From Candidatus Hydrogenedentota bacterium (GTDB lineage Bacteria; Hydrogenedentota; Hydrogenedentia; Hydrogenedentales; JAGMZX01), in NCBI GenBank assembly GCA_029556545.1, contig JAKQEQ010000195.1, forward strand, positions 1-14,193: 14,193 nucleotides of DNA. Reading direction: 5' to 3'. The position numbers were made by a program, and so were the translations under genes. Positions within the stretch are counted from its first letter, which is position 1, and every line of letters begins with the position of its first letter. Of this stretch, positions 1-14,193 are shown piece after piece. Below the pieces are notes generated by a model. That model was not told where the DNA came from. It searched no databases and worked only from the letters and a program-made list of their open reading frames with translations.

Positions 1-341
1 AAGGCGAAGGTCAGGCGCCCGCGCAGCACACGGCAGACCAAGACGGCAACAACCAGATTAGTCTGACCGAATTGTTGCGGGTCATCCAGTTCTACAACTC
101 GGGAGGGTTCCACTGCGCCACCGACCCATCGAGCACGGAAGACGGTTATGTACCGGGACCGGGCGGGGACTATTCGTGCGCGCCACATGCCGGCGACTAC
201 GCGCCCAGCGGTCCGGACTGGACGATCACCCTGACGGAATTGCTTCGCCTTATCCAGTTCTACAATTCCGGCGGATACTATTGGTGCCCCGACGAAGCTA
301 CCGAGGATGGTTTCTGTCCGGGGACTCCCAGCGGGCGCTAA
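1..341 (+). CDS. 3' end of a secreted protein with C-terminal paired EF-hand-like module (5' partial)
   Basis: The frame is open from the left edge (first full codon at base 3) to a TAA at 339-341, giving about 112 visible residues; the start lies outside the window. It begins G-E-G-Q, which looks like the end of a Gly-Glu linker. Two similar halves follow. The first has an EF-hand-style loop DQDGNNQISLTE, with ligand-type residues at loop positions 1, 3, 5, 9 and 12, then L-L-R-V-I-Q-F-Y-N. The second has a stretched, degenerate loop (D-Y-A-P-S-G-P-D-W-T-I) followed by E-L-L-R-L-I-Q-F-Y-N and a closing E-D-G-F-C-P-G. Cysteines recur at matching positions, consistent with disulfides in an exported protein. 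The same module ends the two minus-strand proteins near the right end of the window. The function of the missing N-terminal part is unknown. The TTG at 72 is internal to the module and is not a start. Confidence 0.85.
   Translation, partial: GEGQAPAQHTADQDGNNQISLTELLRVIQFYNSGGFHCATDPSSTEDGYVPGPGGDYSCAPHAGDYAPSGPDWTITLTELLRLIQFYNSGGYYWCPDEATEDGFCPGTPSGR
27..335 (+). other. Dockerin-like paired EF-hand module, copy 1
   Basis: Protein-domain feature. Half 1 carries a near-canonical 12-residue calcium loop; half 2 has three extra residues in the loop and few ligands. Each half continues with the helix motif E-L-L-R-V/L-I-Q-F-Y-N-S-G-G. It matches the modules at 10093-10410 and 11312-11617 residue by residue through most of its length. 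Calcium binding is inferred from the loop pattern only. Confidence 0.7.
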
Positions 342-429: not shown

Positions 430-506
430 TGGCGCGCCCGGCGCGACTCGAACGCGCGACACCCAGCTCCGGAGGCTGGTGCTCTATCCAACTGAGCTAC
501 GGGCGC
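430..506 (-). tRNA. tRNA-Arg, anticodon CCG
   Basis: Read on the minus strand from 506 to 430, the sequence folds as a complete 77-base tRNA. The 7-bp acceptor stem is GCGCCCG (500-506) with CGGGCGC (434-440). The D arm carries GCTC/GAGC. The anticodon stem is CCAGC/GCTGG around the loop CTCCGGA, giving anticodon CCG, which reads the CGG arginine codon. The T arm is GCGCG-TTCGAGT-CGCGC. Position 73 is G and the 3' CCA is encoded (430-432). The variable loop is short, as expected for tRNA-Arg. The gene stands alone between two protein genes, with its own promoter at 518-547. No integrase gene or duplicated tRNA end is visible nearby. Confidence 0.96.
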
Positions 507-665: not shown

Positions 666-3446
666 TCAGGCGGCGTGGCGGGACCGGAGGGCGTCCTCGA
701 TTTCGGTGAGTAGGCGCTTGAGTTCGAAGGGCTTGTGGAGGCAGGCGCGGATGCCGAGTTCCGTGGCCTCTTGGATTTCATCGTCGGTGGCGAGGGCAGT
801 CACGACGATGATAGGCAGGCCGGGGTCGTGTTCGCGGATGTGGCGCAGGAGCGCGATGCCGTCCTGCCGCGGCATGCGTATATCGAGCACGACGAGGTCG
901 ACGCGGTGGCCCGCAAGCAGCGCCTGCGCTTCGACGCCGTCGGAGGCGGCCAACGCGCGGTAGCCGCGCCCCTGAAATATCTCCTTGAGCACTTCGCGCA
1001 GGTCGACATCGTCGTCGATGACGAGAATGGAACGGGGCTCGGTCGCGGGCCGGGCAATAACCGCGGCGGATGACGGCGACGAGGCATCGAAGCGCGGTTC
1101 CGCCGGGGCCGGGCGGCGATGCTCGCGGATGGGTCCGGATTGGGACGGGGTGAGGCGGGCGGCGGAACGGGCCGGACGCGAGGGCGGCGGCGCGGATGGC
1201 GCAAGGGGGGCGACCGCTTCGGAAGCGGCGTGATCGGCACGCCCCGCGACGGGTCTGCCGGCCGACGGAACGGGCGCGGGTTTCGCCGCCGCGGGCGCCA
1301 GATCGATGGCCGCCGGCAGAATAACCCGGAACACCGCGCCCTGTCCGGGCGCATCACTCACATCGATGGCGCCGCCGTGACTCTCGATGATCCCGTGGCA
1401 CACGGCAAGGCCAAGTCCCGTGCCTTCGCCCTGGGGTCGAGTCGTGAAGAAGGGTTCGAAGATGCGGGTGCGCAGTTCAGGCGGCACACCGGGACCGGTG
1501 TCGGCTATCTCGATGCACACCTGTCGCCGATCGGCGCTGGGCCGCGCGCGAATGGCGAGTTCGCCGCCCTTCCCGGTCATGGCCTGTTCCGCGTTCACAA
1601 TGAGATGGAGAAAGACCTGTTCGATACGTCTACGGTCGAGGCGCACACGTGGCAAGTGGTCGCCGTATTCCTCGATGACCCGAATCCCCTGGCGATCGAG
1701 GCGGTCGCGGAGCGTCGCCGCGACCTGCCGCAGAATAAAGCTGATGACGGACGGTTCGAGACGGGGTTCCGGGGGCCGCGCGAACTGCATGAGGTCCGTC
1801 AAGATTCTACTGGCGCGCCGGCTTTGCTCGATGATGGTTTCGAGGCCGCGCGTGTCGTCGGCGGAGTGGGTCCGGTTCAGCATCATCTGGGCACGCCCGG
1901 AGATAACAGCCAGGGGATTATTGATTTCATGGGCGGCGCCGGCGGCCAGGGCGGCGATGCCCGCGAGTCGCTCGCGACGCAGGCGTCGTTGAAACTCCGC
2001 CTCCCGCTCAAGCACCGCATCGGCCATTTCCTCCGTGCGTCGCTCGAGCGCTTGGACCTTGCGCAGCCGCGCGAGGGCGGCCCCGGCGGCCCGCGCGAAG
2101 AGGCGCAGGTCCGCGAAGTCTTCCTCCGTAAACCCGCCCGGCGCGTCGGTGGTGTCGAGGAGCAACTGGCCCATGTGGCGGCCGTCCGCCGTCATCGGCG
2201 CGACAAGAAAGCCCGGACGCCGCACCAATTCGCCGAGGGACGTGCCGCGCAGCACGCCGTCAGGCGCATCCTCGGCGACCGCATCGAGCGCGGCGGGCAG
2301 AGCGGCGTCAAGTTGCTCGGGCGTGGCATTCACCGGTGCATGCAACGGTAGCGCGAGCGGCGTCAGCGGCCCCTGCGCGTCGGCCCACCAGCGCCCCTCG
2401 AGGCACGCCAGATCGAGGTCAACCGCGCAGCACATGCCGGACGGCACGTGAAACGCTTCCCGGACGTGCGGCCCGAGCGCATTGAGGACTTCGGCAACGT
2501 GCCGGGCGTCTGCCAGTTGCGTATGGAGGCGTTCGAGCAGGCCGAGACGTTCGAGGCGGCGTTCGAGGCGATGCTGCGCGTCCGCAACCGGCGACGACGT
2601 GAAAACCGGGCGCGACAAGTCGGCCATGGTCGGGACTGCGGTGTTTGCGGTCTGGCGATTGAGCGCCTCGCGCAATGATTCCTCGGAGAGTCCCAGCCGT
2701 TTGAGCAACACCGGGTCGGCCTGCGCGGCGCTTTCCGCGCCGTCTTCGGCTTCGAGGGTGCGGCGCGCAGCGTCCGCGGCCAGTTGCACGAGGTCGATGA
2801 GCCGCGTGGGATAGTGCGTTTCGTCCAATGCGCCCGCCGGGTGATGGTGCAGCCACGCCGCCGCCACATAGAGTTCATGCAGGCCCCAGTTCTCCAGGAG
2901 CCACTTACCCGCCAGCGTGTGATCGACCCCGAGTTCCCGCCGTTCGGCCTCGATGAGCCCGCGACCCTCCGCGATCGCGGCGTTTCGCACGCGAGCATAG
3001 ACCTCGGGCGCAACCGCATCGAGCGCCAGCTTGCCCACGTTGTGCAGTAAGGTCGCCACATAGGCGACGGACACGTATTCACCGGCGCAATGCTCTCCAA
3101 TCGCCACGGCGTATTCCGCGGCCAGCCGCGCGTGCCGCCAGAACAGGTCGCAGTCGAAGCCTGACTCGGGTGCGGCGGAAAACATTGCCGGGATCGAACG
3201 GGTGAAGACGATGCGGCCCAGCGTCTCGGCGCCCAGTTGAAAGACCGCGTCGCGCACGGTGCGCGCCTGCGGCGCCTGCCGCAGCAGGAATCGCGATACA
3301 TCGGCGTCGAACGAGGCGATGGCGGCGAGTTCCTCGAGGTCCGCCGGCCTTCCGGGGACACAGCGGGCCGTCTCACGCGCGAGATGCGGCAATGCCGGCA
3401 ACCCGCGCATGAGCTTGATACCTCGTTTGACCTCAAGCGCATCCAC
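666..3446 (-). CDS. HDOD-GAF hybrid sensor histidine kinase with C-terminal receiver domain
   Basis: About 926 residues from a GTG start at 3446. Domains in order: HDOD (about 5-235, beginning L-P-A-L-P-H, with L-L-H-N-V-G-K in place of the usual H-D); GAF (about 295-465); a short coiled coil; HisKA with A-H-E-I-N-N-P-L (phospho-acceptor His506); HATPase_c with N box I-V-N-A-E-Q-A (Asn618), G1 D-T-G-P-G-V-P and G2 G-T-G-L-G-L; an Ala/Pro-rich linker (about 714-803); and a receiver domain with acidic pair Asp811-812, phospho-acceptor Asp855 (V-L-D-I-R-M-P), Thr883 and Lys905 (H-K-P-F). It should autophosphorylate and pass phosphate to its own receiver or onward; the signal is unknown. No membrane segment is seen, so it is probably cytoplasmic. 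The frame stays open to 3611, but those residues look non-coding and lie upstream of a good promoter (3476-3505). GTG 3446 keeps the whole HDOD start; ATG 3410 is the alternative. Divergent from the PilT-like gene. Confidence 0.93.
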   Translation of the reverse strand: MDALEVKRGIKLMRGLPALPHLARETARCVPGRPADLEELAAIASFDADVSRFLLRQAPQARTVRDAVFQLGAETLGRIVFTRSIPAMFSAAPESGFDCDLFWRHARLAAEYAVAIGEHCAGEYVSVAYVATLLHNVGKLALDAVAPEVYARVRNAAIAEGRGLIEAERRELGVDHTLAGKWLLENWGLHELYVAAAWLHHHPAGALDETHYPTRLIDLVQLAADAARRTLEAEDGAESAAQADPVLLKRLGLSEESLREALNRQTANTAVPTMADLSRPVFTSSPVADAQHRLERRLERLGLLERLHTQLADARHVAEVLNALGPHVREAFHVPSGMCCAVDLDLACLEGRWWADAQGPLTPLALPLHAPVNATPEQLDAALPAALDAVAEDAPDGVLRGTSLGELVRRPGFLVAPMTADGRHMGQLLLDTTDAPGGFTEEDFADLRLFARAAGAALARLRKVQALERRTEEMADAVLEREAEFQRRLRRERLAGIAALAAGAAHEINNPLAVISGRAQMMLNRTHSADDTRGLETIIEQSRRASRILTDLMQFARPPEPRLEPSVISFILRQVAATLRDRLDRQGIRVIEEYGDHLPRVRLDRRRIEQVFLHLIVNAEQAMTGKGGELAIRARPSADRRQVCIEIADTGPGVPPELRTRIFEPFFTTRPQGEGTGLGLAVCHGIIESHGGAIDVSDAPGQGAVFRVILPAAIDLAPAAAKPAPVPSAGRPVAGRADHAASEAVAPLAPSAPPPSRPARSAARLTPSQSGPIREHRRPAPAEPRFDASSPSSAAVIARPATEPRSILVIDDDVDLREVLKEIFQGRGYRALAASDGVEAQALLAGHRVDLVVLDIRMPRQDGIALLRHIREHDPGLPIIVVTALATDDEIQEATELGIRACLHKPFELKRLLTEIEDALRSRHAA

Positions 3447-3475
3447 GGCGGGCCAGACTCCCCTGTTCCGGCAGG

Positions 3476-3505
3476 ACGCTAGAAAGTAAACGGTGCATTT
3501 GTCAA
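3476..3505 (-). promoter_or_regulatory. Sigma-70-like promoter of the hybrid kinase
   Basis: On the minus strand a perfect -35 TTGACA (3500-3505) is followed after 18 bp by TAGCGT (3476-3481), a weak -10. Transcription would start near 3469, about 23 bases before GTG 3446. If real, it rules out start codons further upstream (for example 3611). Confidence 0.45.
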
Positions 3506-3598
3506 GTCCCCCGTTGTCGCCACATTGTGTTCCGTCACGTAACTCAGCCGCATTCCGAGCTTTCTGAGACCGTGTGTTACGGTTCATAAAGCTTTTCT

Positions 3599-3628
3599 TT
3601 GACTGGTACACGGACTGCGTGCTAGACT
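3599..3628 (+). promoter_or_regulatory. Sigma-70-like promoter of the PilT-like gene and TPR gene
   Basis: The -35 box TTGACT (3599-3604) is followed after 18 bp by the -10 box TAGACT (3623-3628). The predicted start near 3635 leaves a leader of about 45 bases before ATG 3680, which is preceded by AGG-type ribosome-binding bases (AGGTGA, 3671-3676). It lies in the 233-bp gap shared with the divergent kinase gene, so the two directions could be co-regulated. Confidence 0.5.
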
Positions 3629-3679: not shown

Positions 3680-5173
3680 ATGTTCATCGGAAGTCGGGCA
3701 AACAACACGATTCTGGACGTTTTTCGCATTGGCCTCAGCGAATTAATCCGCAAAGTGGGCTTACCCCGCGAGGCAGTCTATAAAACCGATGGGTGCCAAA
3801 TCCGCGTCCGGGCCAATGACCTCTCGAAGCGCGTGGACAACATGCGCATCGTCTTCGACCTCCGCGAAGGCGTGACGCAGGACGAGGTGGTGGCGGCGAT
3901 GGAGGAGTCGCGTTTGGGGGGGCGCGTGAAGTTCGAGAACGGTTCCTGCACTCTCCAGGCGCCGCCCTTCGAGTGGCGGCAACTGCCGATGCTGGTGCCG
4001 CTCGACAAGATGGTTCAGGATTTCGCGGTCCACTCGATGCGGTCGCAGACGTGGAGCCTCGAAACCGTCGAGTATGTCAAGCACAGCCTGAACATCAACG
4101 TTCTCATCGAGGAGATGGAAAAGCGCAAGGCGTCGGACCTGCACCTGCGCGCCGGCACCAAGCCGTACATTCGGGTGGACAACGACCTCTTCCCGCTCGA
4201 CCACATGCCGGTCCTTTCGGCAGGCGACATGAAGGAGTTCCTGCTGCAACTGGGCGGCGAGGCGGAACTCGAAGCGCTGATGTCGGAGAAGGAGATGAGT
4301 TTCCAGTACCACGCGGCGGGAATCGGCTACCTGCGCTGCAGCGGCTATATCAAGACGGGGGCCATTGCCATCGCCATCCGACTGATCCCGGAGGAACCGC
4401 TCCCGTTCGAGGCGCTCAACCTGCCGCTCGTGGTGCGCGACGTGTGCAACCGGCACCGCGGCCTCTTCCTCGTCTGCGGCATCACCGGCAGCGGCAAGTC
4501 CACCACGCTGGCGGCGATGGTGGACTTCATCAACCAGACGCGGTACGCGCACATTATCACCATCGAGGATCCCATCGAATACGTATACACGGACAAGAAG
4601 AGCGTGATTTCACAGCGGCAGGTCGGCCGGGACACGTACAGTTTCGCCAACGCGCTGCGCGGGGCGCTGCGCGAAGACCCGGACGTGATCCTCGTGGGTG
4701 AGATGCGCGATATGGAGACGATCCGAGCGGGCCTGAGCGCCGCGGAAACCGGCCACCTCGTATTCAGCACGCTGCACACGACCACGTCGGTGGACACCAT
4801 CAACCGCATCATCAGCTACTTCCCGCAAAACGAGCGCGACCTCATCCGCCAGGAACTCGCCTACACGCTCCAGGGGGTCGTCTGCCAACGCCTCGTGAAG
4901 CGCGTCGGCGGAGGGCGCATCCCGATTGTCGAGATTCTCCTTGGGGGGCGTCCGATCGTGCGCGACGCCATCCTCGACGGCGACATCGACAAGCTGCACG
5001 GCATCATCGAAGTGGACGGCGACATGACGACCTTCGACGAATATGCCGTGAAGCTATATCAGTCGGGCCTCGTCTCCCGGGACGAAGCCATCTCGGCGTG
5101 TTCGAATGAGCAAGGCTTCGAGCGCGTCATTTCCGGCATCAAGTCCTCGGAAGGCCGCAAGATTCTCAAATAA
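3680..5173 (+). CDS. PilT-like type IV pilus/type II secretion ATPase with N-terminal extension
   Basis: 497 residues. Residues from about 140 match the PilT/GspE ATPase superfamily: a PilT-type start E-K-R-K-A-S-D-L-H-L-R-A-G (148-159), Walker A G-I-T-G-S-G-K-S-T (267-275), Asp box I-T-I-E-D-P-I-E (293-300), Walker B D-P-D-V-I-L-V-G-E (333-341) and His box T-G-H-L-V-F-S-T-L-H (357-366). PilT-family hexamers power pilus retraction at the inner membrane. The usual PilT is about 340-370 residues. Here residues 1-139 are extra and not recognised. The C-terminal A-I-R-N-L-I-R-E motif of classical PilT is replaced by R-P-I-V-R-D-A-I-L-D-G, so retraction activity is not certain and no pilT/pilU symbol is given. 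The TPR gene follows after 9 bp, its ribosome-binding site overlapping this gene's stop codon, so the two are probably cotranscribed. No pilin or other pilus gene lies in the window. Confidence 0.93.
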   Translation: MFIGSRANNTILDVFRIGLSELIRKVGLPREAVYKTDGCQIRVRANDLSKRVDNMRIVFDLREGVTQDEVVAAMEESRLGGRVKFENGSCTLQAPPFEWRQLPMLVPLDKMVQDFAVHSMRSQTWSLETVEYVKHSLNINVLIEEMEKRKASDLHLRAGTKPYIRVDNDLFPLDHMPVLSAGDMKEFLLQLGGEAELEALMSEKEMSFQYHAAGIGYLRCSGYIKTGAIAIAIRLIPEEPLPFEALNLPLVVRDVCNRHRGLFLVCGITGSGKSTTLAAMVDFINQTRYAHIITIEDPIEYVYTDKKSVISQRQVGRDTYSFANALRGALREDPDVILVGEMRDMETIRAGLSAAETGHLVFSTLHTTTSVDTINRIISYFPQNERDLIRQELAYTLQGVVCQRLVKRVGGGRIPIVEILLGGRPIVRDAILDGDIDKLHGIIEVDGDMTTFDEYAVKLYQSGLVSRDEAISACSNEQGFERVISGIKSSEGRKILK

Positions 5174-5182
5174 GGAGGCGGT

Positions 5183-6412
5183 ATGCGCTGGGCCGCCGCG
5201 ATTCTCGCCATCGTACTGCTTGGGGCGCTGGCCGCGGTGCAGACCGCGCGCCTGTGGCGGTTGGCAGCTGAAAATCAAGCGGCGTCGCCGACCGTTCCGT
5301 CCATCGCATCCACTGGGGAGTCTCCGTCCGACACGATCCCCGAACAAACCCCAATCGACGCCGAAACGCAACCACAAGAGACGAGCGAGGGCGACGCCGC
5401 CTTCGGCGAAAGGCTCGTGGCGCAGGCTATCGAGGCGATGATGGCCGAAGCGGCTTCCGCCGAAGCGGCGCGGGCGCCGGAGATGCCGGCCGCGGGCGGG
5501 ACCGACGCGACACACGTCGAACGAAGGCGCAACGGCGCACGTCATGAACGTGCGGGCCGCGAAGGCGAGGAACCGGGACGCAGCGCGCAACGGGCGCAGC
5601 AATTGCTCAACCGCGCGAAGAACGCGCTGGCGGTGGGCGACTTCGAAGGGGCGGCGGGAATGCTCGCCCGAAGTCTGGAACTGGATCCCCGGAATCGTCA
5701 GGCCTATCGGGCGTTGGCCCAGATGCACCAGACCCTTGGTTTGACGGAGGACGAAATGCGCGTCTACCAGGAGTGGGCCGCGGCAATGCCCAACGATGGA
5801 ATGCCGCACTACTTGCTTGCGCGCGCGTACGAACGTATGGGGCTCAATGCGGAGGCCCTGGCGGAACTGCGCCTCTTCGAAAGCCTCAGCGGCGGCAGCC
5901 TGCCTTCGTTCCCGGTGCTGGCCAATATGTACCAGGAACTGGGCATGCGCGCCGAACAACAGCAGGTGCTTCAGGCGTGGGTCGAAGCCGCGCCGGATTC
6001 GCCGGATGCGCGCCGCGCAATGGCGCAGTATTACCGGCGCATGGGGGATTACGCCGCGGCCGCCGCGCAGTACGAACATCTTGCCGCAATCACGCCGCAG
6101 AATGCGTCCGTGTACGCCGACATGGCAAGCATCTACCGGCACATGGGCCTGTATGCCGAGGCGGAAGCCAACTATCTTCACGCGCTCGAGTTGCAGCCCA
6201 ACAACCTGGGTGTGCGCCTGCAACTCGGGAATATGTATCGCGCCTCGGGCGACTTGTACGCGGCGCTCGATGTTTATCAGAGCATCATGGACGCCTCGCC
6301 AAACTCGAATGAAGCGCGCCAGGCCGCCCGCGCCATCCTCCGCCTACAAAACCAGCTTGCGACGCCCAAACCGAAGCCCAAATTGCTTGCCGCTTCCCCA
6401 GAGCGAAAGTAA
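5183..6412 (+). CDS. Membrane-anchored TPR-repeat protein
   Basis: 409 residues. AAGGAGG (5172-5178) lies 4 bases before ATG 5183. The N-terminus has a hydrophobic segment (about residues 3-20) with a following Arg, consistent with a signal anchor or an uncleaved signal peptide. Next comes a Pro/Thr/Glu/Ala-rich low-complexity stretch (about 30-130). About seven tetratricopeptide repeats follow (138-375), with typical features such as G-D-F-E-G-A, L-E-L-D-P-R-N and A-L-E-L-Q-P-N-N. The tail is Lys/Pro-rich. TPR arrays are protein-binding scaffolds. Tight coupling to the PilT-like ATPase suggests a partner in pilus or secretion-machine assembly (compare PilF/PilW pilotins), but no lipobox is present and the link is inferred from position only. 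It could equally be a general periplasmic scaffold. Confidence 0.88.
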   Translation: MRWAAAILAIVLLGALAAVQTARLWRLAAENQAASPTVPSIASTGESPSDTIPEQTPIDAETQPQETSEGDAAFGERLVAQAIEAMMAEAASAEAARAPEMPAAGGTDATHVERRRNGARHERAGREGEEPGRSAQRAQQLLNRAKNALAVGDFEGAAGMLARSLELDPRNRQAYRALAQMHQTLGLTEDEMRVYQEWAAAMPNDGMPHYLLARAYERMGLNAEALAELRLFESLSGGSLPSFPVLANMYQELGMRAEQQQVLQAWVEAAPDSPDARRAMAQYYRRMGDYAAAAAQYEHLAAITPQNASVYADMASIYRHMGLYAEAEANYLHALELQPNNLGVRLQLGNMYRASGDLYAALDVYQSIMDASPNSNEARQAARAILRLQNQLATPKPKPKLLAASPERK

Positions 6413-6475
6413 GTCCCGAGGGTGGCGGGGAAGGCCGCCGGCAAAGTACAACCGCCGCAAACAGGGAGCTTGATG

Positions 6476-9400
6476 ATGAAGGACCCGTCACGAAACACCG
6501 CCGCCATTCTCATACTGAGCCTGCTTCTACACGCCGCCTCAAGCGCAAGCGACTTGGTGCGCGAGACGGCCCGCGAGATTCCCGTGAGCCACGATGTTGA
6601 CATTGTAGTCGCAGGCGGTTCGCTCGGGGCCGTCGGCGCGGCTGTCGAGGCGGCCCGCGGCGGTGCGCGTGTGTTCCTGGCGGCGCCCCGCACGTACCTC
6701 GGCGACGATGTTTGCGCCACTTATCGACTCTGGCTGGAGGAAGGCGAAACGCCTCAGTCACCCTTCGAGCAGACCTTGTTCGCGCCGCCGAAGCCGCCCA
6801 TTCAAGCAGGGAACAGCCTGCCGTTTTCGTACACGACCGATCTCCCCTCCGCGGCGTCGCATAAGGACACGGACCCGCCGTCGATGCTCGCGGACGACAA
6901 GGCAAACAACGCAGGCAGCCAGAGCGTGCAGTACGACGGCGACGTGACGATCATCGCCGATCTCGGACAGGAAACCGAGGTGGACCGCGTGCACGTCCTC
7001 GCTTTCCAGCGCCTCGCTTCGTTCGAGGTCGCCAAGGTCTCGGTCGCCCTCAGCGTGGACGGCAGACAATGGGGAAGCCCGGTCACAGCCGCAAATGAAT
7101 CGCGCACGGCGGGCAATTTCGAGGACGCGCCGCTGGCCGTCACCGTCGAGGCCGCGGGCCGCGCGCGGTATGTGCGCGTGTCGGTGAGGAAACCGGATCA
7201 CGTTGGGCGCATGCTGCTCGGCGAGATTGTGATCGAGCCGCAAAATACCGGCGGGCACCTTCGCGCCGCGACGGACGCGCCCATCCCCCCGATGCCGATG
7301 CAGGTCAAGCGCACGCTCGAGCAGGCGCTTATTGCGGAGGGCGTCGGCTTCCTGTACGGATGTTTCGTCACGGACGTGCTGCGCGATGAGGCCGGGCAAC
7401 CCGCGGGCGTGGTCATGGCAAATCGCTCGGGCCGCCAAGCGGTGCGCGCGAAGTACATCATCGACGCGACGCCCCGCGCCGCCGTCGCGCGCATGGCCGG
7501 CGCGGCGTTCTCGGCCTATCCCGCGGGCGATCGCGAGTTTCGGCGCGTGGTCATCGGGGAATCGCCCGCAGCACAGCCGGGGCCGGGTGTGGCGGATTGC
7601 CGCGTGCTGCCAGCGCCCGTGCAACTGCAACAAGGCGGCTGGGGCGGCCACAACCTGCGGCAGGCGCACGAGTATACGTTGCGTATTCCGATGGCGGACG
7701 GCGCCTTCGCGTCGTTCGCCGCCGCAGAGCAGGTTGCGCGTGACCTGACCTGGGGTCCCGAATTGTTGATAGCGTCGGAATCGCTTTTCCAGATACCGCC
7801 GGACACGATGCGTGCGCGCTCGAAGCATGAGGGGCCGGCCATCGACGCCGAGTCGCTTGATCTCGACGTGTTCCGCCCGACCGACGTCGATCGGCTGTAT
7901 GTCCTCGGCGGGTGCGCGGACGTGTCCCGCGAAGCCGCCGAGCGCCTGCTGCGGCCGTTGACCTTTCTTCGCGTCGGGCAGCGACTTGGCCGGCGCGTCG
8001 CCGCTGAAGCGTCGAACTTGCCCGCGCCGGACCGCGCCCGCGTGCGCGGCGCGTCGGTCGAGGACGCCGCACCCGGCGACGTGCGCGAGACGCTCGTCGG
8101 CCCGCGGCCCATCTCCTCGGGCCTGCCCACCGTTTCTTCCGAGGAACGCGGACTCCCGGTACTGGCCCGTTACGACGTGGTGGTGGTGGGTGGCGGCACG
8201 GGCGGCGCGCCCGCGGGCATCGCCGCGGCGCGTCAGGGCGCGCGCACGCTCGTCATCGAGTACCAGCACAGCCTGGGCGGCGTCGGTACGCTGGGGCTCA
8301 TCGGCAGCTACTACTACGGCTATCTGAAGGGATTCACGGACGAAGTCGACCACGGCGTCGCCGCGCTCGGCGGCCAGGAACAGCCGGCGCGGTCCTCGTG
8401 GAATGTCGAGTGGAAGATGGAGTGGTATCGGCGCGAACTGCGCAAGGCCGGCGCGGACATCTGGTTCGGCGCCATCGGCTGCGGCGCAATCGTCGAGGGC
8501 GGCACGCTCCGGGGCGTGGTCGTCGCCACGCCGGACGGTCGCGGCGCGGTGCTGGCCGACGTTGTGATTGACGCCACCGGCAACTCCGATATCGCAGTCG
8601 CCGCCGGCGCGGCCGGCATGACCACGACCGATGACCACGTCGGCGTTCAGGGCACGGGCATGCCGCCGCGCAGGCCCGGCGCGAATTACACCAATACGGA
8701 CTACACCCTCACCGACGACGCGGATACGGTGGATTTCTGGCGCACGCTGGTCTCGGGACGGGAGAAGTACCGGGACGCCTTCGATCTCGGCGTGCTCGTG
8801 GACTCGCGGGAGCGGCGCCGCATTGTGGGCGACTTCGTCGTCTCCCCGCTGGACCTCGCCAATCGCCGCACCTATCCCGACACGATTGGTCTCTCGCGCA
8901 GCAACTTCGACTCGCATGGGTTCACCGTGCACGCGCTGTTCGCGCTCGAAATGCCCGACAAGGAGGAGGTCATCGCGAACACGCCGTATCGCGCGCTGCT
9001 GCCGAAGGGACTCGAAGGCATTCTCGTTACCGGGCTCGGGATCAGCGCGCACCGCGACGCCATGCCGATCCTGCGCATGCAGGGCGATATCCAGAACCAG
9101 GGCTACGCCGCGGGCTGCGCCGCCGCGATGGCCGCGAAAGGGGGCGTGCCGCCGCGCGCCATTGATGTAAAGGCATTACAGCGGCATCTCATCGAGAAAG
9201 GTAACGTGCCCGAATCCGTTCTGACCGACCACGACTCGTACCCACTCCCACTGGACACGGTCTGGGCGGCCGTCGAGAGCGTGGCGGACGACTATCGCGG
9301 CGTCGCAGTGCTCTTGGCGCAGCCCGCCGAGGCGTTGCCGCTGCTGCGCGGCGCGTATCAGGCGGCGGAATACGACGCCGCGCGGCTGGTCTACGCGCAC

Positions 9401-9997
9401 ATCCTGGCGATGCTGGACGACCCGACCGGCGCGGAGACCCTTTTGCGCGCCGTCGCGGAGCAACCCTGGGACCAAGGCTGGTCGTTCACCGGCATGGGGC
9501 AGTTCGGCGGCAGTTTGAGCCGCCTCGACAGCCTGATCATCGCGCTGGCGCGCACGGGTTCCCCAAAGGCGCTCGAAGTCATCCTAGACAAAGCACGCGC
9601 GCTTGATGCAACCAGCGAGTTCTCGCACCACCGCGCGATTGCGATTGCGGCGGAGACGCTCGGGCGGCCCGAGGCCGCGCGCGGCCTTGTCGCGCTGCTG
9701 CGGAAGCCCGAAATGAGCGGCCACGCCTGCCGCGACATCGAGACCGCGCGGCAACGGGCAAACCTCGCGAACCCAGACCTCGACCGCGACCGCTCGATTC
9801 GCGAATTACTATTGGCCCGCGCGCTATATCGCTGCGGCGACTTCGAGGAACTCGGGGAAGGCATCCTCCACGAGTATGCCCACGACCTGCGCGGCCACCT
9901 GGCGCGGCACGCGCAAGCCGTGCTCGGCCTGACGGGAACATCGGTTCCCGTCGTTCCCGGCACGGGCCTCGATATCGAGCGCTGGCCTATACGATAA
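6476..9997 (+). CDS. Exported tandem FAD-dependent oxidoreductase with discoidin-like insert and helical-repeat tail
   Basis: About 1,173 residues. The frame is open from GTG 6422, but AGGGAG (6463-6468) sits 7 bases before ATG 6476 (4 before ATG 6473), and only these starts put the signal peptide (I-L-I-L-S-L-L-L-H-A-A-S-S-A-S) at the front. Half 1 has a Rossmann motif (about 40-63) with G-G-S-L-G-A, then an inserted beta domain of discoidin (F5/8 C) style (about 135-255, with D-L-G-Q-E-T-E-V-D-R-V and A-R-Y-V-R-V-S-V). Half 2 has a classical G-G-G-T-G-G motif (about 566-594), an I-D-A-T-G-N-S motif, and the FAD-oxidoreductase C-terminal pattern R-M-Q-G-D-I-Q-N-Q-G-Y-A-A-G (867-880). The last about 230 residues are helical, HEAT-like. 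The nearest family known to me is FAD_oxidored (PF12831), which includes large exported members in planctomycete-like bacteria; the substrate is unknown. The gene starts 63 bases after the TPR stop and could be read through from it, but its job looks unrelated. Confidence 0.9.
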   Translation: MKDPSRNTAAILILSLLLHAASSASDLVRETAREIPVSHDVDIVVAGGSLGAVGAAVEAARGGARVFLAAPRTYLGDDVCATYRLWLEEGETPQSPFEQTLFAPPKPPIQAGNSLPFSYTTDLPSAASHKDTDPPSMLADDKANNAGSQSVQYDGDVTIIADLGQETEVDRVHVLAFQRLASFEVAKVSVALSVDGRQWGSPVTAANESRTAGNFEDAPLAVTVEAAGRARYVRVSVRKPDHVGRMLLGEIVIEPQNTGGHLRAATDAPIPPMPMQVKRTLEQALIAEGVGFLYGCFVTDVLRDEAGQPAGVVMANRSGRQAVRAKYIIDATPRAAVARMAGAAFSAYPAGDREFRRVVIGESPAAQPGPGVADCRVLPAPVQLQQGGWGGHNLRQAHEYTLRIPMADGAFASFAAAEQVARDLTWGPELLIASESLFQIPPDTMRARSKHEGPAIDAESLDLDVFRPTDVDRLYVLGGCADVSREAAERLLRPLTFLRVGQRLGRRVAAEASNLPAPDRARVRGASVEDAAPGDVRETLVGPRPISSGLPTVSSEERGLPVLARYDVVVVGGGTGGAPAGIAAARQGARTLVIEYQHSLGGVGTLGLIGSYYYGYLKGFTDEVDHGVAALGGQEQPARSSWNVEWKMEWYRRELRKAGADIWFGAIGCGAIVEGGTLRGVVVATPDGRGAVLADVVIDATGNSDIAVAAGAAGMTTTDDHVGVQGTGMPPRRPGANYTNTDYTLTDDADTVDFWRTLVSGREKYRDAFDLGVLVDSRERRRIVGDFVVSPLDLANRRTYPDTIGLSRSNFDSHGFTVHALFALEMPDKEEVIANTPYRALLPKGLEGILVTGLGISAHRDAMPILRMQGDIQNQGYAAGCAAAMAAKGGVPPRAIDVKALQRHLIEKGNVPESVLTDHDSYPLPLDTVWAAVESVADDYRGVAVLLAQPAEALPLLRGAYQAAEYDAARLVYAHILAMLDDPTGAETLLRAVAEQPWDQGWSFTGMGQFGGSLSRLDSLIIALARTGSPKALEVILDKARALDATSEFSHHRAIAIAAETLGRPEAARGLVALLRKPEMSGHACRDIETARQRANLANPDLDRDRSIRELLLARALYRCGDFEELGEGILHEYAHDLRGHLARHAQAVLGLTGTSVPVVPGTGLDIERWPIR

Positions 9998-10083: not shown

Positions 10084-10977
10084 CTACTTCGCGAAACCCG
10101 GACAGAACCTGTCCTCCGTGCCCTCATCAGGACAGGAATGGTAGCCGTCGGAGTTGAAGAACTGGACGAGTCGGAGTAGTTCCGTCAGCCCGATCTGCCA
10201 GTCCGGACCGGACGGCGCGTAATCGCTGTCGTGAGGACAACACGCCTGATTTACGCCGGAACCGGTTACATAGCCGTCTTCCGTCTCGCCCGGGTCGTCC
10301 GCGCAATGGAGCCCGCCCGAATTGTAGAACTGGATTACCCGCAATAATTCCGTCAACTCGATCACGCCGTTCGTATTCTGGTCCGCGACGTGGTGTGCGT
10401 TGACGCACGGATCGCCGGGCAGGCTTGTCAGCAGACAGAAAGCGAAGTCCGTCGCGATCCCGCCGACGCCGCTCGAGTAGGCAAGATTGTCCCCGCCGAC
10501 GCCGTTTGCCCAATAGAAGAAACAGCCGGACAGGTCGCCAACGCCAAACACGCTTACCCAGCCCGCGGCAAGGTCGACGGGCTCGGCGAACGTCACCTCG
10601 TAACGGAGCAGCTCACCGAAGCCGACGTCCGTGCCGGTCGCGACGGCCACCGGCGAGAATGTCTCCGAGGCCACCAGCGATCCCGGCTGCGCGCCGTTGT
10701 CGTTGTAGAATCCCACTTCAAAGTTGTCCGTGGCGCGGGTGCATGGGGCCATATTGATTCCCCCGCCCCACCACACCAGCCCGACGACAGGTTCGGTCAG
10801 ACCGGAGAAGTTGTCGTATGCCCGCAGCATGTTGTCGGACGCATCGCTGTAGCCGGGCAGGGTCGTAGTCGGCGCGGGCGGTTGAGAATAGGCCGCGTCC
10901 TCATCGCAGATTTCGATCGCTTCAGCGCAGACGACGCCGAAGACCAGGCACACAATACAAATACCGCGAACAATCAT
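10084..10977 (-). CDS. Secreted beta-sandwich protein with C-terminal paired EF-hand-like module
   Basis: 297 residues; GAGG lies 7 bases before ATG 10977. A signal peptide is clear (hydrophobic to about residue 17, likely cut after A-E-A at 20). The cysteine at 17 follows V-V, not a standard lipobox. Residues about 40-185 have the pattern of a beta-sandwich seen in many planctomycete secreted proteins: D-N-F-S-G, V-W-W-G-G-G, D-N-F-E-V-G-F-Y, P-G-S-L-V, F-A-E-P-V-D-L-A-A-G and D-F-A-F-C-L. Residues about 190-295 are the same dockerin-like module found at the other two sites: loop DQNTNGVIELTE then L-L-R-V-I-Q-F-Y-N, and a degenerate second half with E-L-L-R-L-V-Q-F-F-N. No (GE)n linker separates the two parts here. 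The gene lies downstream of the large surface-protein gene on the same strand, 322 bases away, so it probably has its own promoter. Enzymatic function is not apparent; a carbohydrate- or surface-binding role is a guess. Confidence 0.9.
   Translation of the reverse strand: MIVRGICIVCLVFGVVCAEAIEICDEDAAYSQPPAPTTTLPGYSDASDNMLRAYDNFSGLTEPVVGLVWWGGGINMAPCTRATDNFEVGFYNDNGAQPGSLVASETFSPVAVATGTDVGFGELLRYEVTFAEPVDLAAGWVSVFGVGDLSGCFFYWANGVGGDNLAYSSGVGGIATDFAFCLLTSLPGDPCVNAHHVADQNTNGVIELTELLRVIQFYNSGGLHCADDPGETEDGYVTGSGVNQACCPHDSDYAPSGPDWQIGLTELLRLVQFFNSDGYHSCPDEGTEDRFCPGFAK
10093..10410 (-). other. Dockerin-like paired EF-hand module, copy 2
   Basis: Protein-domain feature, residues 190-295 of the 297-residue protein. 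Half 1 has a 12-residue loop D-Q-N-T-N-G-V-I-E-L-T-E. Half 2 shares with copy 1 the stretched loop D-Y-A-P-S-G-P-D-W and has lost most ligands. Conserved Cys and the E-D-G-Y-V and E-D-R-F-C-P-G segments match the other copies. Confidence 0.7.
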
Positions 10978-11299: not shown

Positions 11300-14193
11300 C
11301 TATATCGCCGCCCCAGGGCAGAACCCGTCCTCCGTGCCCTCGCCCGGGCAGTAGTGGTAGCCGCCGTATTGGTAGAACTGGATCACGCGCAACAGCCCGG
11401 TGAGATCGATTCGCCAGTTGCTGTTGGTGTCGGCGGCATGAGGACAGCAGGTATGGTTCGCGCCCGGCCCCGGCACATAGCCGTCTTCCGTGTCGCCGGG
11501 ATCGTCCGCGCAGTGGAACCCATTCGAGTTATAGAATTGGATCACGCGCAACAGTTCAATCAGTTCGATCCGGTTGTCGCCATTCTGGTCCGTCGTGTGA
11601 TATTCACTGAAACAAGGGTCCCCTTCCCCTTCGCCTTCACCCTCACCCTCACCACCCTCGCCCTCGCCCTCACCCTCACCCTCACCCTCGCCCTCACCCT
11701 CGCCTTCACCTTCACCTTCACCTTCACCCTCGCCACTCATACCAGGATAGATAGCGGGGTCCAACGCGGCAACCTTGTAACGGATAGCCTCAGCTTTCGC
11801 CGTTGTTACCGCCTCATACTCCGGGCAGCGATTCGGCCAGAAGGCGTTGTACTCCTCGATATTCGAGAACCCGTCGCCATCGGCGTCCTCCAGCGCCGTC
11901 AGTTGTGACAGGGGGATGAAGTCCGCAATGTCAAGGTCGGGGTCGGCGAAACCTGTGCCCAGTTCTTCAGTGAGTGCATCGTTGAGCAGATTAAACAGCC
12001 CAGCGACGAATCCGAAGGACCCCGTTCCCTGGGCCACCGTTTCCGACACCCGCTCATAGGCGCCGTCGCCCAACGTAACGTAACCGACGAGTATCTCCGC
12101 AAGACCCGCGGCCAGCACGTTCAAAGCCGGTCCCAGCTCCGGGCCGATGTTCACGTTCACCAACTGGTTGTAATTGTGCTCCCACGCGGCCATGACCGTC
12201 GCGTGGTCCAGCACGCCGTTATCGAACGACTCATCGCTCAGAATCCGCTGCAACAGCCCGAGTTCATTGGCGGCGTCCTTGATGCCGTTCCCGAGAATCT
12301 CGACAACGAGATTCTCGGAGTCGGTGATATCGATGAAGAACGACCCGTTGATATCGGCGACATTCGGCTGGAGCATGTTGACGAACACCTGGTACTCGGG
12401 GTCCAGGTCGCCGAGCAGCGGGTTGTTCACCACGGCGTAGAACGAGAGGCAGAAGTCCACGAACGGGTCCTCCTCCCCTTCATCACCGCCGACCGGGAAG
12501 ATAGTGGGGTCGAGCGCCGCGAGGCGATAACGAATCGTCGGCGAACTCTCCTTGCCCAAGTCGTAGGAAGGACACGCATTCGGCCGGAAGTAGAGATATT
12601 CCTCCCGATTCGACCACGTGTCGCCGTCCGCATCGCTGTTCACGGTAAACATATCAAGGAAGATGAATGTCGCCGGGTCAAGATTCGGATCGGCGAAACC
12701 GTTCCCCAACTCACCGATCAGCGCGTCGTTGATGAGATTGAACAGCCCGGCGACAAACCCGAACGAGCCGTTTCCTTCGACAATCGTCTCCGAAACCCGC
12801 TCGAAGCCGCCGTCGCCCAGGGTCACAAAGCCCACCAGCAGTTCCGCGAGCCCCGCCGCAAGCAGGTCCAGCGCGGGCGCGAGGTCCGGCCCGATGTTGA
12901 CGTTCACCAATTGGTTGTAGTTGTGTTCCCACGCGGCCATGGCGACATCGTGGCTGATCACGCCGTTGTCAAACGCCGGGTCGTTCAGCACCCGTTGCAG
13001 AAGTCCAAGTTCGTTCGCGGCGTCCTTGATCCCATTGCCGCGAATGTCGATCACGGCGTTATCGCCGTCCGTAAGATCGACGTAGAAAGAACCGTTCAGG
13101 TCGGCCACGTCCGGTTGCAGCATATCGATCAGCGGCTGATATTCAGGGTCCAGTTCGCCGAACAGCGGGTTATTCGCGACAAGGTAGAACGCAAGACAAA
13201 AATCGATGAACGGCTCTTCGCCCTCGCCTTCTCCTTCCCCTTCACCTTCACCCTCGCCTTCCCCTTCGCCCTCGCCCTCGCCTTCCCCCTCGCCCGGCAA
13301 GGTGTCGTTCACAATCAATTCAATTGGGAAACCTGTCGGCACGGTCGTCGTCCACGTCTGACCCGCATTCAGATTGCCCGTGCCGTTGATGCGTCGGGCC
13401 GGGAACGATCCCGCACGCACCCATACCCGCGTTAGGTCAATCTCATTATCGTTTACCAGCAAGACCTGATCGAATCCGTTGAACACGGAATCGAATGCCG
13501 CCAGACGAATAAGGCGCACGTTCTTGACCGTTTGTTGCGCCGCGGCCTCCAGAACCTGCTGCTGGTTGAAGTAGCCCGGGATCGGATAACCCTGCACGCG
13601 CGGCCCATTCACCACCTGTGGGATTACCGGACTCGCCATGCCGTTCAGTATCGGATTCGTCCCCTTCAACAACGGGTCGTTCACCGTCGTCGCCAAGAGC
13701 GTCGTTGGATTCGTCAGTTCCGGTATCTGGAGGCTGACCGCGAACGGACTCATATTACAGACGAACGTGACTTGACCGTTGGCGTCTATGCTCGCATCGG
13801 CGCTGTTGTTGGCCAGAATCCGAGGAGGAGCCCCCGTCTGGTCCACCCGAACGACCGACGCGTGCAACTTCAGCGTGCCCGGCGTGCCGTGACCGCCCGC
13901 GCCGCCAACGCCCCCAAGACGCGCACCGGCCTGTCCGGCCTCGGGTGCACCCGCCGAAATATCCAGGTCAACACCCGGACCGATTTCGAGCAGCCCCTTC
14001 GCGGCAAGCACCAGGCACCCTCCCCCGTTGCCTCCCTTACCGCCGCGCCCGCCAACGCCGCCGTCGGCCGCCTTGCTTACATCTCGTTCAATAATTCCTT
14101 GGTCGCCCCCTGTCTTGGTCGGTATTCCGGCCCCCGCGCCGCCCGGCGCCCCCAGAGCCCCGTCGCCACCCTTCGCCCCCGCCCCGCCGTCGC
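11300..14193 (-). CDS. Large modular surface protein: Gly-rich region, two tandem repeats, (GE)n linkers, EF-hand-like C-terminal module (5' partial)
   Basis: The frame stays open from the right edge to the stop at 11300-11302; about 963 residues are visible and the start is outside. The GTG at 14011 lies inside a Gly-rich stretch that continues upstream without a stop, so it is not the start. From the N-terminal side: a G-G-x-G-G-rich region (to about 13890); a non-repetitive stretch with T-R-V-W-V-R-A-G-S-F-P-A-R; a (GE)n linker (13214-13294); repeat unit 1 (12491-13213); a short acidic spacer; repeat unit 2 (11741-12466); a longer (GE)n linker (11621-11734); and the paired EF-hand-like module (11312-11617). 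Each repeat unit ends with a calcium-loop-like D-A-D-G-D-x-x-S-N-x-E-E-Y, as in thrombospondin type 3 or EF-hand proteins. This layout suggests a long secreted or cell-surface protein. No catalytic motif is recognised. A general match to Gly-rich adhesin-like surface proteins is inference. Confidence 0.88.
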   Translation of the reverse strand, partial: DGGAGAKGGDGALGAPGGAGAGIPTKTGGDQGIIERDVSKAADGGVGGRGGKGGNGGGCLVLAAKGLLEIGPGVDLDISAGAPEAGQAGARLGGVGGAGGHGTPGTLKLHASVVRVDQTGAPPRILANNSADASIDANGQVTFVCNMSPFAVSLQIPELTNPTTLLATTVNDPLLKGTNPILNGMASPVIPQVVNGPRVQGYPIPGYFNQQQVLEAAAQQTVKNVRLIRLAAFDSVFNGFDQVLLVNDNEIDLTRVWVRAGSFPARRINGTGNLNAGQTWTTTVPTGFPIELIVNDTLPGEGEGEGEGEGEGEGEGEGEGEGEGEEPFIDFCLAFYLVANNPLFGELDPEYQPLIDMLQPDVADLNGSFYVDLTDGDNAVIDIRGNGIKDAANELGLLQRVLNDPAFDNGVISHDVAMAAWEHNYNQLVNVNIGPDLAPALDLLAAGLAELLVGFVTLGDGGFERVSETIVEGNGSFGFVAGLFNLINDALIGELGNGFADPNLDPATFIFLDMFTVNSDADGDTWSNREEYLYFRPNACPSYDLGKESSPTIRYRLAALDPTIFPVGGDEGEEDPFVDFCLSFYAVVNNPLLGDLDPEYQVFVNMLQPNVADINGSFFIDITDSENLVVEILGNGIKDAANELGLLQRILSDESFDNGVLDHATVMAAWEHNYNQLVNVNIGPELGPALNVLAAGLAEILVGYVTLGDGAYERVSETVAQGTGSFGFVAGLFNLLNDALTEELGTGFADPDLDIADFIPLSQLTALEDADGDGFSNIEEYNAFWPNRCPEYEAVTTAKAEAIRYKVAALDPAIYPGMSGEGEGEGEGEGEGEGEGEGEGEGEGEGGEGEGEGEGEGDPCFSEYHTTDQNGDNRIELIELLRVIQFYNSNGFHCADDPGDTEDGYVPGPGANHTCCPHAADTNSNWRIDLTGLLRVIQFYQYGGYHYCPGEGTEDGFCPGAAI
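11312..11617 (-). other. Dockerin-like paired EF-hand module, copy 3
   Basis: Protein-domain feature at the extreme C-terminus. Half 1 loop DQNGDNRIELIE is a textbook EF-hand spacing (acidic or Asn at 1, 3, 5; Ile at 8; Glu at 9 and 12). Half 2 loop DTNSNWRIDLTG keeps the 12-residue length but has Gly at position 12. Unlike copies 1 and 2 it lacks the three-residue loop insertion. E-D-G-Y-V-P-G-P-G and E-D-G-F-C-P-G match copy 1. Confidence 0.75.
11621..11734 (-). repeat. Gly-Glu dipeptide repeat linker, long copy
   Basis: About 19 hexanucleotide units (minus strand GGYGAR-type) encode an alternating Gly-Glu tract of about 38 residues. Synonymous third bases vary between units. One extra codon near 11652 gives a Gly-Gly and shifts the phase of the hexamer by half a unit. 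It separates repeat unit 2 from the C-terminal module. Confidence 0.9.
11741..12466 (-). repeat. Tandem protein repeat unit 2 (about 242 residues)
   Basis: Begins P-F-V-D-F-C-L and ends A-A-L-D-P-A-I-Y-P-G. Compared by eye it is about two-thirds identical to unit 1, including identical runs G-N-G-I-K-D-A-A-N-E-L-G-L-L-Q-R and A-A-W-E-H-N-Y-N-Q-L-V-N-V-N-I-G-P. Near its end it has D-A-D-G-D-G-F-S-N-I-E-E-Y, a calcium-loop-like motif. No family name is recognised. Confidence 0.85.
12491..13213 (-). repeat. Tandem protein repeat unit 1 (about 241 residues)
   Basis: Begins P-F-I-D-F-C-L-A-F-Y and ends A-A-L-D-P-T-I-F-P-V, aligning with unit 2 almost without gaps. The central part (V-A-G-L-F-N-L-I-N-D-A-L) looks helical. 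The D-A-D-G-D-T-W-S-N-R-E-E-Y loop lies near the end. A short acidic spacer (about 12467-12490) joins it to unit 2. Confidence 0.85.
13214..13294 (-). repeat. Gly-Glu dipeptide repeat linker, short copy
   Basis: Encodes about 26 alternating Gly and Glu residues between the N-terminal region and repeat unit 1. It is built of the same hexanucleotide type as the longer tract at 11621-11734, with synonymous variation that shows selection on the peptide or old duplication. Confidence 0.9.

Follow-up and report, generated by a model that had tools for sequence, protein, structure and literature searches.

In cellulosomes, separate dockerin types are carried by enzymes and by scaffoldins (PMC12484212). 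Outside cellulosomes, the 'planctosome' hypothesis proposed a cohesin-dockerin assembly in freshwater Planctomycetes for proteases with P-domains (PMC6461901). The planctosome proposal involves recognised dockerin domains on few proteins, whereas the locus described here carries a different module that occurs on about 100 proteins. A literature search retrieved no report on a dockerin or cohesin system of Hydrogenedentota. This phylum is known almost only through metagenomes, and most of its large exported proteins are unannotated. Cohesin-dockerin assembly outside cellulosomes had already been proposed, and the new element would be a distinct docking module in Hydrogenedentota. Judged from sequence comparisons, we consider it likely that this module is a dockerin-like domain by which secreted proteins dock onto cell-surface cohesins.

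The module in the window and its predicted fold

The window, i.e. the whole stretch of DNA that was analysed, is an entire contig of 14,193 bases (C191) from a 6.1 Mb genome in 195 contigs (G000). Its translations revealed that three genes close with one module of about 100 residues composed of two halves. Copy 1 (positions 15..326, plus strand; profile E 2.4e-64, also seen in the alignment) is the C-terminus of a gene at 3-341 that is cut by the contig start. Copy 2 is located at 10087..10413 (minus strand; E 1.1e-66) and copy 3, the main copy, at 11306..11620 (minus strand; E 4.8e-63). All three lie only a few residues before the stop of their own genes. Identity to copy 3 is 63% for copy 1 as well as for copy 2, and the three copies share a mean column identity of 78% over 111 alignment columns, which bears out the shared C-terminal module reported in the preliminary description. 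A profile was built from these copies and then searched in their own genome and in the phylum; the E-values of the window copies within the genome (5e-63 to 1e-66) exclude a chance match.

The carriers were also said to differ completely upstream of the module. Since the contig ends truncate genes 1 and 3, leaving only the tail of gene 1 visible and gene 3 without its start, this statement is checkable for genes 2 and 3 alone, and for these two it holds. Gene 2 (10084..10977, minus strand, 297 aa) encodes a signal-peptide-like start, a region of ~175 residues without a Pfam family, and the module. Gene 3 (11300..14193, minus strand, at least 963 aa) encodes a Gly-rich region, a domain of ~210 residues in two copies, (Gly-Glu)n linkers and the module, with the linker from passenger to module translated from 11621..11750 (minus strand, end approximate). 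The repeated domain ('...DPEYQPLIDMLQPDVADLNG...NELGLLQR...'; within 11621-14191, minus strand) lies between (GE)n linkers and matched no Pfam family. The rest of the contig (430-9994) is ordinary, with a tRNA-Arg(CCG) gene (430-506, minus strand), an HDOD/histidine kinase/receiver hybrid (669-3611, minus strand), a PilT/GspE-type ATPase (3680-5170), a TPR protein (5183-6409) and an FAD oxidoreductase with an F5/8 C domain (6473-9994).

An alignment of 192 full copies, 96 of them from the genome of the window, gave the half 1 consensus D-Q-[ND]-x-[DN]-x-x-I-x-L-[ST]-E-L-L-R-V-I-Q-F-[YF]-N-S-G-G-[FY]-H-C ... T-E-D-G-[YF]-x-P-G and a similar half 2 starting with S-D-Y-x-P-x-D-W. Ligand positions of a calcium-binding-type loop are kept in both halves (in loop 1, D1 100%, N/D3 88%, D/N5 97% and E12 99%), with exact EF-hand spacing in loop 1 and often one additional residue (13 residues) in loop 2. 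The loops of copy 3 were translated as DQNGDNRIELIE (11555..11590, minus strand; 12-residue EF-hand spacing) and DTNSNWRIDLTG (11396..11431, minus strand), the latter with Gly at position 12, compared with Glu in 99% of copies. The two halves are 67% identical across a 21-position core, and the presence of an insert between them in three carriers indicates that they behave as units. The closing C-P-G motif of the preliminary description is fixed in the three window copies but varies in the wider family.

The four cysteines of the module covary in two pairs. Among 240 modules, both cysteines of the first pair were present in 236, neither in 3 and a single one in 1, and the corresponding numbers for the second pair were 184, 55 and 1; covariation of the second pair persisted after 70% dereplication (p 1e-19). 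From this pattern, we infer that one disulfide closes the hairpin of each half. The putative bonds of copy 3 link Cys37 to Cys58 in the half-1 hairpin (11447..11512, minus strand) and Cys91 to Cys101 in the half-2 hairpin (11318..11350, minus strand), the second of which marks the subtype carried by passengers. An AlphaFold2 model of copy 3 built from 68 sequences (pLDDT 95.8, pTM 0.86) showed the order loop, helix, hairpin twice, with helices at residues 20-31 and 73-85 only after each loop and none before, which is the F-hand plan of dockerins. Two calcium-type loops, each followed but not preceded by a helix, are one mark of a type I dockerin, and the module shows them, the loops as conserved ligand positions in the sequence and the helices in the model.

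Database comparisons left the module outside named families, in agreement with the preliminary description: no Pfam or NCBIfam family reached its cut-off. In Pfam, EF-hand_6 (E 0.002-0.004) and Dockerin_1 (E 0.031) appeared below curated cut-offs; for Dockerin_1 (PF00404), copy 3 scored 14.9 bits against a gathering score of 22.9, and copies 1 and 2 were unlisted. Nothing relevant was returned by the NCBIfam scan. NF041540, the family of the GC-type dockerin, a known variant, did not match the window module and weakly matched a true dockerin of the same genome. Profile-profile comparison against 34 local dockerins aligned one F-hand only (probability 30%), Foldseek with the module model ranked dockerins first at E-values no better than 0.99, and all 16 entries listed by a VIA fold comparison (Z 2.0 to 3.8) were dockerins. 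The likeness in fold and sequence is consistent with a dockerin, weakly and without reaching significance. In common with type I dockerins (PF00404), the module has a duplicated calcium-loop-plus-helix plan, attachment by a linker to unrelated exported proteins, occurrence on cohesin proteins as in scaffoldins, and placement at the equivalent tail position of homologous proteins. It differs from the type I dockerins of cellulosomes in its length (~100 residues against ~60-70), in an added hairpin with a cysteine pair behind each helix, and in its helix motif ELLRxIQF[YF]N, with a score below the Pfam cut-off and a weak fold score. Taken together, the sequence features suggest that the module is probably dockerin-like in its working, while standing outside Dockerin_1 by that family's own test. 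An LPXTG/sortase identity was rejected separately, as the LPXTG motif, hydrophobic stretch and basic tail are absent from the three window tails.

Carriers and distribution of the module

The genome of the window contains 111 profile matches, which resolved into 107 distinct carriers upon inspection of the surrounding DNA. This and the other genomes are metagenome-assembled, and all counts and p-values treat related genes as independent. A (Gly-Glu)n-type linker was found in 55 of the 66 complete carriers. A signal-peptide-like start was detected in 58 of the 66, compared with 20 of 68 control ORFs, by a simple home-made and crude predictor. The passenger domains are unrelated and include peptidases (C1, C25, M14, S15), GDSL lipase, CHRD, LRR, Ig, PKD, Kelch, beta-helix and P-domain. 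Matches of 29 passengers to Pfam TrAA12 were discarded as a low-complexity artefact, since the inspected examples fell on the (GE)n linker.

The module ends no more than 15 residues before the stop in 93 of the 107 carriers. The question whether it is always C-terminal was answered in the negative, since six carriers bear it straight behind the signal peptide and the remaining ones are internal or could not be placed. These positions bear on the possibility that the module is a sorting signal for a dedicated secretion or attachment machine of the PEP-CTERM/exosortase or T9SS-like kind, with no involvement of cohesin. The prevailing C-terminal position and the export of the carriers would suit such a signal, as would the recurrence in low-copy genomes of a trypsin-like protease with the module, which could be a processing enzyme. 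However, the N-terminal and internal copies are hard to reconcile with a signal of the PEP-CTERM or T9SS type that must stand strictly at the C-terminus, and they led to rejection of an identity with the T9SS C-terminal domain; a search for the T9SS translocon by SprA_N gave no signal in its controls. Moreover, the module is a folded domain of 100 residues that lacks the hydrophobic helix and basic tail of a PEP-CTERM signal, and exosortase was not found in the genome of the window or in four others (G040, G028, G031 and G039). A sorting signal is accordingly regarded as improbable.

Across the phylum, the profile search recovered the module in 41 of 68 Hydrogenedentota genomes, with at least 72 copies in the four largest; two genomes held at least 150 and at least 96 modules. 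The copies, whose median identity is 67%, have kept their ligand residues, helices and cysteine pairs in the different families of the phylum. The best 80 contig loci by profile all belonged to Hydrogenedentota or to unnamed metagenome-assembled genomes. Similar 'ISLxELTRVIELYN' tails probably occur in Verrucomicrobia. The plasmid and phage collections searched yielded no convincing relative of the module. A cysteine-free relative with 41% identity to a window copy was seen at about 954-1295 of a 34-kb predicted viral contig (IMGVR_UViG_3300042371_000974; L415/L416), in a large protein beside a CBM_5_12-like match, and this contig may represent a phage carrying a docking module.

Several contigs of the window's genome (C191, C124, C9, C34, C155, C100, C75 and C192) have a module or linker within a few hundred bases of their start. 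Because many contigs begin in this way, it is probable that the repeats interrupt the assembly, and the actual number of modules may exceed the count. Such contig ends near modules or linkers are also what repeated DNA would cause if the module were a segment spread by recombination through (GE)n repeats without any common function. Against this stand the conservation of ligands, helices and cysteine pairs across families, the same pattern in both halves, and reading frames open in nearly all copies, which make spread without function very improbable.

Probable cohesin partners and exchange with classical dockerins

A candidate cohesin-like receptor, whose existence the preliminary description had raised as a question, is indeed encoded in the genome of the window, in some cases fused to the module. 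An operon (G000:C33:42094-44618) contains three adjacent cohesin genes, of which gene A encodes a cohesin followed by the module and genes B and C each encode a cohesin with a C-terminal membrane helix. Genes A and C passed the cut-off of Pfam PF00963; gene B scored below it, yet was matched by a cohesin profile of related proteins. The model of gene A superimposed on known cohesins with Z 18.6 (5nrk_A; rmsd 1.6 over 130 residues). The six-residue linker between its cohesin and module is too short for a docking test by model, and a natural module-linker-cohesin chain is present in another genome, G003. Furthermore, a 920-aa protein on contig C116 of the window's genome combines a module at its N-terminus with a cohesin-like domain behind it. 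Fusions of one cohesin to one module comprised 21 proteins from 20 genomes, with further ones recognised in the alignment only. In a census of 100 cohesin ORFs, 89 of them complete, a C-terminal membrane helix occurred in none of the 21 proteins with a module, compared with 54 of the 68 others. Two observations speak against the docking reading. No operon of the A-B-C type was found in G003, which has 37 modules; G041, with 19 modules, contains cohesins, and none of those seen was fused to a module.

Six genomes belonging to one family lack the module and have 11-51 classical dockerins each; the 11 genomes that have 19 or more modules contain 0-7. No genome was rich in both, a separation that is not significant (p 0.58) and follows family lines. 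Within this distribution, dockerins and modules occupy equivalent positions on homologous proteins. G064, one of the six module-free genomes of that family, has 15 dockerins and contains a three-cohesin operon whose 244-aa member ends in a classical dockerin at the position of the module in gene A. Likewise, homologues of a trypsin-like protease have three kinds of C-terminus: the module in eight genomes (G001, G002, G003, G007, G013, G014, G036 and G039), a classical dockerin in three (G041, G048 and G049), and a membrane helix in further genomes. This alternation of module, dockerin or membrane anchor on homologous proteins is the strongest support for a docking role, and suggests that the module is interchangeable with ordinary dockerins in Hydrogenedentota. 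Together with the unrelated exported carriers and the 21 cohesin fusions, the dockerin swaps on two homologues back the analogy with dockerins on which a docking or anchoring tag had been proposed.

The same results weigh on another interpretation, in which the module is a surface domain stabilised by calcium and disulfides that binds polysaccharide, an S-layer or itself and is fused to cohesins only incidentally. Loops and cysteines as strongly conserved as these would suit any extracellular calcium domain, and the cysteine-free relative near a CBM-like match on the viral contig fits as well. This interpretation leaves unexplained both the dockerin replacement on two homologous proteins and the mutual exclusion of module and membrane anchor on cohesin proteins, and we regard it as unlikely, to the same degree as a sorting signal.

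The trypsin-like protease (~830-1030 aa; L356, L358, L367, L368, L417-L421) is a recurrent carrier in genomes with 1 to 6 modules, and could serve as a maturation enzyme or as a core component of the system.

Two module subtypes and a possible two-tier display

The second cysteine pair divides the modules into two subtypes: 184 of 206 passenger modules have it, whereas all 34 modules borne by cohesins or proteases lack it. In a tree calculated without the two cysteine columns, 28 of these 34 fell into one group of 39 (support 0.82), and carrier labels changed 12 times, against a mean of 31 in shuffles. For 17 of 22 cohesin-borne modules, the nearest relative was another cohesin-borne module. 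The lack of the second pair in all adaptor and protease copies suggests two docking specificities, a parallel to the separate dockerin types on cellulosomal enzymes and scaffoldins. Alternatively, the subtypes could reflect descent only.

The docking reading that we favour would proceed as follows. After export, the two F-hands of the module would bind calcium and disulfides would form between its cysteines; surface cohesins would be bound by the symmetrical helices (ELLRxIQF[YF]N). Likely sockets in the genome of the window are the products of genes B and C of the C33 operon and of a gene on contig C9, which end in a membrane helix. Gene A would encode an adaptor, whose own module, which belongs to the subtype lacking the second disulfide, would dock to an anchored cohesin, and whose cohesin would receive passenger modules. 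In this way, ~100 proteins, among them proteases, lipases, adhesin-like and propeller proteins, would be displayed on the cell surface by a non-cellulosomal system.

A broader version of this scheme is put forward more tentatively, at somewhat less than even chances: a separate, disulfide-clamped class of cohesin-docking modules, unlike type I-III dockerins, would run a two-tier display throughout the phylum. Through modules lacking the second disulfide, a core protease and the adaptors would be fixed to anchored cohesins; through modules of the other subtype, 100 to 150 passengers would be fixed to the adaptors. On C33, a cohesin whose tail is of a distinct subtype lies beside membrane-anchored cohesins, which by analogy suggests the two-tier logic of adaptor and anchoring scaffoldins with type II/III cohesin-dockerin pairs (PMC12484212). 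In contrast to those scaffoldins, the operon described here has one cohesin per protein, anchoring relies on membrane helices instead of SLH or sortase anchors, and the passengers are mostly not glycoside hydrolases.

If the docking reading is correct, a single profile would name much of the Hydrogenedentota surface proteome, ~100 proteins per genome, and provide a rule for its assembly. It would also add to the known dockerin types a docking module with built-in disulfides and apparently two specificities, would bear on the evolution of cohesin-dockerin pairs outside cellulosomes, and may supply a plug-and-socket pair that is new and orthogonal. Because module and dockerin replace each other on homologous proteins, the docking question is directly testable.

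Two further features of cohesin loci were observed. A set of small anchored cohesins (L276:13917-14618 and homologues in L284, L280, L285, L288, L282 and L397) terminates in a cysteine followed by a hydrophobic stretch and a tail containing arginine, an arrangement that resembles a C-terminal sorting signal and was not recognised by NCBIfam. Beside the cohesin operon on C33, a 1284-aa protein (L276:5932-9783, minus strand) contains a long EF-hand array (Pfam E 5e-96) and ends in a module of the subtype that lacks the second cysteine pair.
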